DNA from: Frankia sp.
GTDB lineage: Bacteria > Actinomycetota > Actinomycetes > Frankiales > Frankiaceae
Reading direction: 5' to 3'
NCBI GenBank assembly: GCA_019689615.1
Contig: JADGHD010000002.1
Coordinates: 1 to 35,978, forward strand
DNA: 35,978 nt
Shown here: positions 10,997 to 11,211 of the stretch, piece by piece
Numbering within the stretch: position 1 is the stretch's first letter
Layout: each line of letters begins with the position of its first letter
The notes under the pieces: generated by a model
What the model saw: only the letters and a program-made list of their open reading frames with translations
Told to the model about the DNA's origin: nothing
Databases searched by the model: none
Translations under genes and position numbers: made by a program

Positions 10997-11068
10997 AGCC
11001 GCGCTCTTCCTATTGAGCTAGGGGCGCACGTGGAGCGCCCCACGGGGCTCGAACCCGCACCCTCGGCT
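10997..11068 (-). tRNA. Circularly permuted tRNA-like gene, unit 2 (3' half 11068-11034, 5' half 11027-10997); anticodon unresolved
   Basis: Minus strand: AGCCG-AGGGT-GCGGG-TTCGAGC-CCCGT-GGGGCGC-T-CCACGT-GCGCCCC-TA-GCTC-AATAGGAA-GAGC-G-CGGCT. Acceptor 7/7 bp (GCGCCCC/GGGGCGC), D stem GCTC/GAGC, anticodon stem CGGCT/AGCCG 5/5, T stem 5/5 with one G.U; 5' half is exactly nt 1-31 and 3' half exactly nt 39-73 in Sprinzl numbering. Confidence 0.75.
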
Positions 11069-11137
11069 CGGGCCGTTGGCCAGGTGCTGGCGATATGGCC
11101 GGGTATTGAGTTGTGGAGCGAGAGACTCAGACTCAGC

Positions 11138-11211
11138 CCGGCTGCCTCTTCCAGTTGGGCTACCCCGGCGCGTCGAGCCGGGAGGGGGACTCGAACCCCC
11201 ACTGTCACCAG
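11138..11211 (-). tRNA. Circularly permuted tRNA-like gene, unit 1 (3' half 11211-11176, 5' half 11169-11138); anticodon unresolved
   Basis: Minus strand: CTGGT-GACAGT-GGGGG-TTCGAGT-CCCCC-TCCCGGC-T-CGACGC-GCCGGGG-TA-GCCCAACTGGAAGAGGC-A-GCCGG. Acceptor 7/7 (one G.U), anticodon stem 5/5 (two G.U), T stem 5/5, canonical T loop and GG in the D loop. Confidence 0.7.

Follow-up and report, generated by a model that had tools for sequence, protein, structure and literature searches.

An approximately 340-nt noncoding RNA with two permuted tRNA-like heads is encoded directly downstream of a DUF7873 family gene on the minus strand of a 35,978-nt stretch of Frankia sp. DNA (contig JADGHD010000002.1; hereafter the window, to which all coordinates refer). 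The RNA (about 10905–11250, 5′ end approximate) has two stem domains, both ending in a permuted tRNA-like module, followed by a 3′ hairpin, and is defined by its homologues at DUF7873 loci, 13 covarying helices, and a covariance model of its first domain. It accompanies DUF7873 in bacteria of several phyla and in phages, independently of Ro60. In our reading, held at a probability of roughly 60%, it is a tRNA-mimicking, Y-RNA-like scaffold for a DUF7873 ribonucleoprotein (RNP), for which we infer the function, RNP binding, and processing. The locus would then be a two-gene cassette of the DUF7873 protein and its RNA.

Two permuted heads in one covarying RNA

Both modules lie on the minus strand between 10997 and 11211, where an initial annotation made from the letters alone had proposed two tandem circularly permuted tRNA-like genes. 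Direct reading of the sequence bears out the modules and their shared order: anticodon-stem strand, variable region, T-arm, 3′ acceptor strand, 7-nt loop, 5′ acceptor strand, D-arm, and anticodon-stem strand. In unit 1, the 3′ half (anticodon-stem strand through 3′ acceptor strand) spans 11177–11211 and the 5′ half (5′ acceptor strand, D-arm, anticodon-stem strand) 11138–11169, separated by the acceptor loop TCGACGC, which lacks CCA (11170–11176). Unit 2 has its 3′ half at 11035–11068 (11031–11068 with U73-CCA included), its loop TCCACGT at 11028–11034, and its 5′ half at 10997–11027; N73-CCA opens this loop and a U stands at position −1. The acceptor strands pair 7/7 within each unit and the anticodon stems 5/5, with G-U pairs in unit 1, as had been proposed. 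The spacers, described as identical, share their 7-nt length and differ in sequence, matching at 5/7 positions.

ARAGORN finds no ordinary, normal-order tRNA at either unit. Rejoining the halves of each unit in 5′ plus 3′ order through an invented anticodon loop yields a tRNA call for both units. Joins of halves across the two units receive no call, in agreement with the earlier remark that a linear reading fails, and an ordinary or split tRNA is thereby ruled out.

The fold is supported by very strong covariation, which the initial annotation had listed among its checks. An alignment of 40 bacterial and phage sequences (A2) was scored against a 70-pair structure of 13 helices, in which 88.7% of cells are paired (67.7% in shuffles), 64/70 pairs show changes on both sides, double-change cells number 574 as compared to 194, and the covariation score is 0.541 as compared to 0.185; none of 500 shuffles equals the data on any measure. 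Sliding the partner by 1–3 columns drops pairing to 39–45%, a somewhat favourable control given that some helices were derived from A2 itself. The T, acceptor, and D stems had been predicted in the initial annotation, ahead of the covariation count. A search for the same layout returned 143 pattern matches in the DUF7873 locus set, with the permuted modules present at almost all loci, and 3 in shuffled sequence. Together, the covariation and these pattern counts rule out chance fragments. In a looser alignment of 165 sequences, a simple pairing test is passed by the domain-2 head in 159 and by the domain-1 head in 116. At Streptomyces, Kutzneria, and Nocardia loci (L012, L045, L082, L083), domain-1 matches are short (82–99 nt) and the pairing test agrees; here the stem of domain 1 seems to be retained and its tRNA-like head lost.

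The initial annotation had missed the larger structured RNA around both units and the DUF7873 gene ahead of them. Both units are parts of a single ~340-nt RNA that has a 3′ hairpin of its own and is linked to DUF7873. Domain 1 comprises P1, P2, the anticodon stem, and the head, while domain 2 comprises P3, P4, P5, the anticodon stem, and the head. P1 closes domain 1 by pairing 11245–11250 with 11115–11120 (helix 1, both-side changes in 6/6 pairs), and P2 pairs 11226–11238, inside a conserved CUNA-repeat region, with 11122–11134 (helix 2). In domain 2, the P4 strands CGCCAG (11087–11092) and CTGGCG (10961–10966) form helix 8, with 95% of cells paired. The 3′ hairpin (10909–10939) is terminator-like without a U-run in the window, and its columns covary among homologues; a terminator scan, which requires a U-run, returned no match there. 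The motif A-N-C-U-N-A occurs 132 times as compared to 45 expected from shuffles, a three-fold excess that suggests a candidate protein site. A peptide reading of the 5′ repeat (KLKLKL-like) was discarded, given the covarying stems and the indels between homologues. A promoter dedicated to the RNA is suggested by eye at some loci and is unsupported by a promoter scan, and is not claimed.

These features bear directly on whether the units are permuted tRNA genes in the established sense. As in the permuted tRNA genes of algae and archaea, the 3′ half precedes the 5′ half across a short spacer, and the rejoined units pass ARAGORN. The window RNA differs, however, in lacking an anticodon loop and in being embedded in a larger structured RNA, and its modules fold without rejoining. 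The flanks of the units do not end in an anticodon loop but run into the covarying stems P1, P2, P4, and P5, acceptor identity is not conserved, and the modules are always found in the larger DUF7873-linked RNA. Calling the units circularly permuted tRNA genes is probably a mistake, and we regard it as very improbable that they are genuine permuted genes, like those of red algae, whose tRNAs serve in translation.

Coupling to DUF7873 in bacteria and phages

The DUF7873 gene (PF25283; 11360–12094, minus strand) encodes 244 aa and is a clear member of its family by Pfam profile (E = 6.7e-107, 357 bits against a cut-off of 27). The family has no known function, and a search of an open-access library found no paper naming DUF7873. 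Its relatives number 5061 at E ≤ 0.001 in a search of 5.8 billion proteins. These thousands of proteins gain a concrete candidate RNA partner, described here by comparison. An AlphaFold model of the protein is confident (pLDDT 89.5).

The prokaryotic set holds 86 DUF7873 loci, 80 from a genome scan and 6 from phylum genomes, the window's own included, and spans Actinomycetota, Chloroflexota, Cyanobacteriota, Myxococcota, and Armatimonadota. A nucleotide profile trained on some of these loci places the RNA beside 84/86 of them. At locus L038 (2475–2853), from a deltaproteobacterial metagenome-assembled genome, the RNA lies upstream of DUF7873 and not downstream. Within the window's genus, 7/8 genomes carry the RNA. 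Other than DUF7873, no neighbour within 3 kb is common across phyla at the bacterial loci.

The domain-1 covariance model scores the window at 125.5 bits, with the window among its 32 training sequences. Across 201 phylum genomes, scores above 100 bits occur exclusively in DUF7873-bearing genomes (5/6 of them). Five loci with weak matches in DUF7873-free genomes were checked: four are adjacent ordinary tRNA pairs, and the fifth lies within an ordinary tRNA cluster.

Viral contigs contribute 80 more DUF7873 loci, and DUF7873 is present in 75 records of named phages; 128 tRNAs were counted in 80 viral loci. The bacterial RNA profile matches 82/84 of the viral loci tested, most directly downstream of the gene. 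The viral hosts of the cassette are large phages, and in several it resides inside tRNA arrays. In the Klebsiella phage vB_KpM_FBKp24 (L202), an annotated ‘tRNA-Sup-TTA’ (3513–3597) overlaps a domain-2 match (3515–3682) and is probably a mis-annotation.

The frequent position of the cassette within phage tRNA arrays suggests, and makes testable, a part in phage-host conflict that involves tRNA. In one version of such a role, the modules would act as tRNA decoys that titrate binding or cleaving enzymes away from the elbow or acceptor end of tRNA, and DUF7873 would stabilize the decoy. The phage records, the patchy spread across distant phyla, and an acceptor sequence that varies freely while the fold stays are all in line with this proposal. 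Conversely, PADLOC finds no defence-family match, no conserved defence genes stand beside the bacterial loci, and, without an anticodon loop, the RNA would not be a decoy for anticodon nucleases. A PHROG search gave nothing useful. We consider the decoy explanation tentative, with perhaps one chance in a handful or slightly better.

A Y-RNA-like layout without Ro60

YrlA, a bacterial Y RNA, is described as a long stem, on which Rsr sits, plus a tRNA-like domain that has D, T, and acceptor arms and binds PNPase (PMC8394870). Among known RNAs it comes closest to the window RNA, which shares the long stem, formed by the strands on either side, and at its end the same permuted order of a tRNA mimic: T-arm, acceptor, loop, acceptor, and D-arm. 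Helices 1–13 of the window RNA covary. The window RNA differs from YrlA in carrying two tandem modules in one RNA, in adjoining a DUF7873 gene instead of Ro60, and in its 7-bp acceptor with a longer, variable loop that often holds NCCA. YrlA-type Y RNAs reportedly occur in phages, an observation ascribed to Chen et al. in 2014.

The Rfam YrlA model (RF02553) matches unit 2 over its full length at 28.2 bits and unit 1 at 19.2 bits. Several results weigh against the scaffold reading. Both of these scores are below the gathering threshold of 69 bits, and pairs of adjacent ordinary tRNAs (L212, L215, L216, L217) reach 35–41 bits on the same model, so that a YrlA score by itself proves nothing; the relation to Y RNA is instead drawn from topology and covariation. 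In roughly 30% of loci unit 1 is degenerate, lost, or fails the pairing test, and two heads are thus not always needed. Fold searches with DUF7873 gave no convincing relative in the PDB, where the best match is at E = 0.014 and a TM of about 0.17, and returned one weak viral match with no name attached. As a separate matter, adjacent tRNA pairs are a source of false Y RNA calls by the Rfam model.

The window RNA could also be a YrlA in the strict sense, bound by Ro60 from a gene located elsewhere, as the matches at 28 and 19 bits and the presence of a TROVE (Ro60/Rsr) gene in 20/46 DUF7873 genomes would allow. Against this, TROVE is missing from the window's own genome (93% complete), from the other 26/46 DUF7873 genomes, and from 19/20 viral records. 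Moreover, in sister genomes that have TROVE, separate YrlA-like matches of up to 56 bits adjoin that gene. A canonical YrlA is accordingly very unlikely. In layout the RNA works like a Y RNA, and the tests of score and of linkage to Ro60 keep it out of YrlA; a Y-RNA-like architecture can therefore occur without Ro60. Actinobacterial TROVE loci (L096, L099, L100, L101, L103) show one or two nearby YrlA-like matches of 30–56 bits, all under 69 bits and thus missed by default Rfam annotation.

In the scaffold reading, DUF7873 may bind the stems or the repeated CUNA sequences of the RNA. This suggestion follows from the near-complete linkage, the protein having no recognisable fold relative. The tRNA-like heads would attract tRNA-recognising factors such as RNase P, tRNA-modifying or -processing enzymes, or nucleases, and the RNA would act like a bacterial Y RNA, as a scaffold or decoy in tRNA and RNA metabolism. 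The analysis describes a new Y-RNA-like tRNA-mimic RNA, usually twin-headed, with a DUF7873 partner; its existence, fold, spread, coupling to DUF7873, and independence from Ro60 are shown. The short list of tRNA mimics thereby gains an apparently new, large, and deeply conserved noncoding RNA family.

Acceptor loops, CCA ends, and the comparison with tmRNA

Acceptor loops differ in length and sequence among homologues. N73-CCA nonetheless falls at the exact tRNA position in 26/45 distinct unit-2 loops, where 2000 shuffles gave a mean of 1.7 and a maximum of 6, and in 12/56 unit-1 loops (shuffle mean 2.3). In the viral set the counts are 11/19 and 10/19, and U occupies position −1 in 17/19 unit-2 loops. 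Such placement is compatible with RNase P and CCA maturation. The acceptor pairs 2–71 and 3–70 vary freely in the covariation alignment, which argues against a fixed aminoacylation identity. The alanine identity pair G3-U70 is likewise not fixed (pairs 115–143 in unit 1 and 323–364 in unit 2), and a glycine-like identity through U73 was rejected as not conserved.

In permuted ssrA, which encodes two-piece tmRNA, the CCA-bearing 3′ strand of the acceptor precedes the 5′ strand across an intervening loop, an arrangement that the window RNA shares. Permuted tmRNA genes are also mentioned in the literature (PMC10085705). The window RNA differs in having two tRNA-like heads and no recognised tag reading frame. 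No tmRNA covariance match was found at the gathering threshold in the window or at E ≤ 10 within 10850–11360.

By analogy with two-piece tmRNA, the RNA might be processed into several pieces: RNase P would cut before G1 of each unit and the 3′ side would be matured to a CCA end, so that the acceptor stems would hold together two or three strands, possibly aminoacylated. The N73-CCA counts in bacteria and viruses and the U at −1 favour this, as does the retention of CCA in a genome where about a quarter of the tRNA calls in its loci encode it (9/38, some repeated). On the other hand, many other lineages have short UUCG- or CUCG-like loops without CCA, no aminoacylation identity is kept, and the window has no tmRNA match at Rfam thresholds. 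A multi-piece RNA is thus a doubtful alternative, a little behind the decoy. Still more speculative is a combined proposal of an undescribed RNP class common to bacteria and large phages: both heads would be opened by RNase P and CCA maturation, up to two CCA ends on one RNA would be charged or bound like tRNA, and DUF7873 would serve as the dedicated partner; we think this improbable.

Two minor features of the window concern automated annotation. The sole ARAGORN tRNA in the window, a tRNA-Ala (cgc) at 24241–24330 on the minus strand, shows nothing clearly tRNA-like when its sequence is read; it appears to be a false positive, probably within coding sequence. Two open reading frames overlie the RNA, one of 104 aa at 10894–11208 on the minus strand (GVAQLEE...) and one of 65 aa at 11030–11227 on the plus strand (SSIGRAR...); both are probably artefacts that annotation would list as hypothetical proteins.
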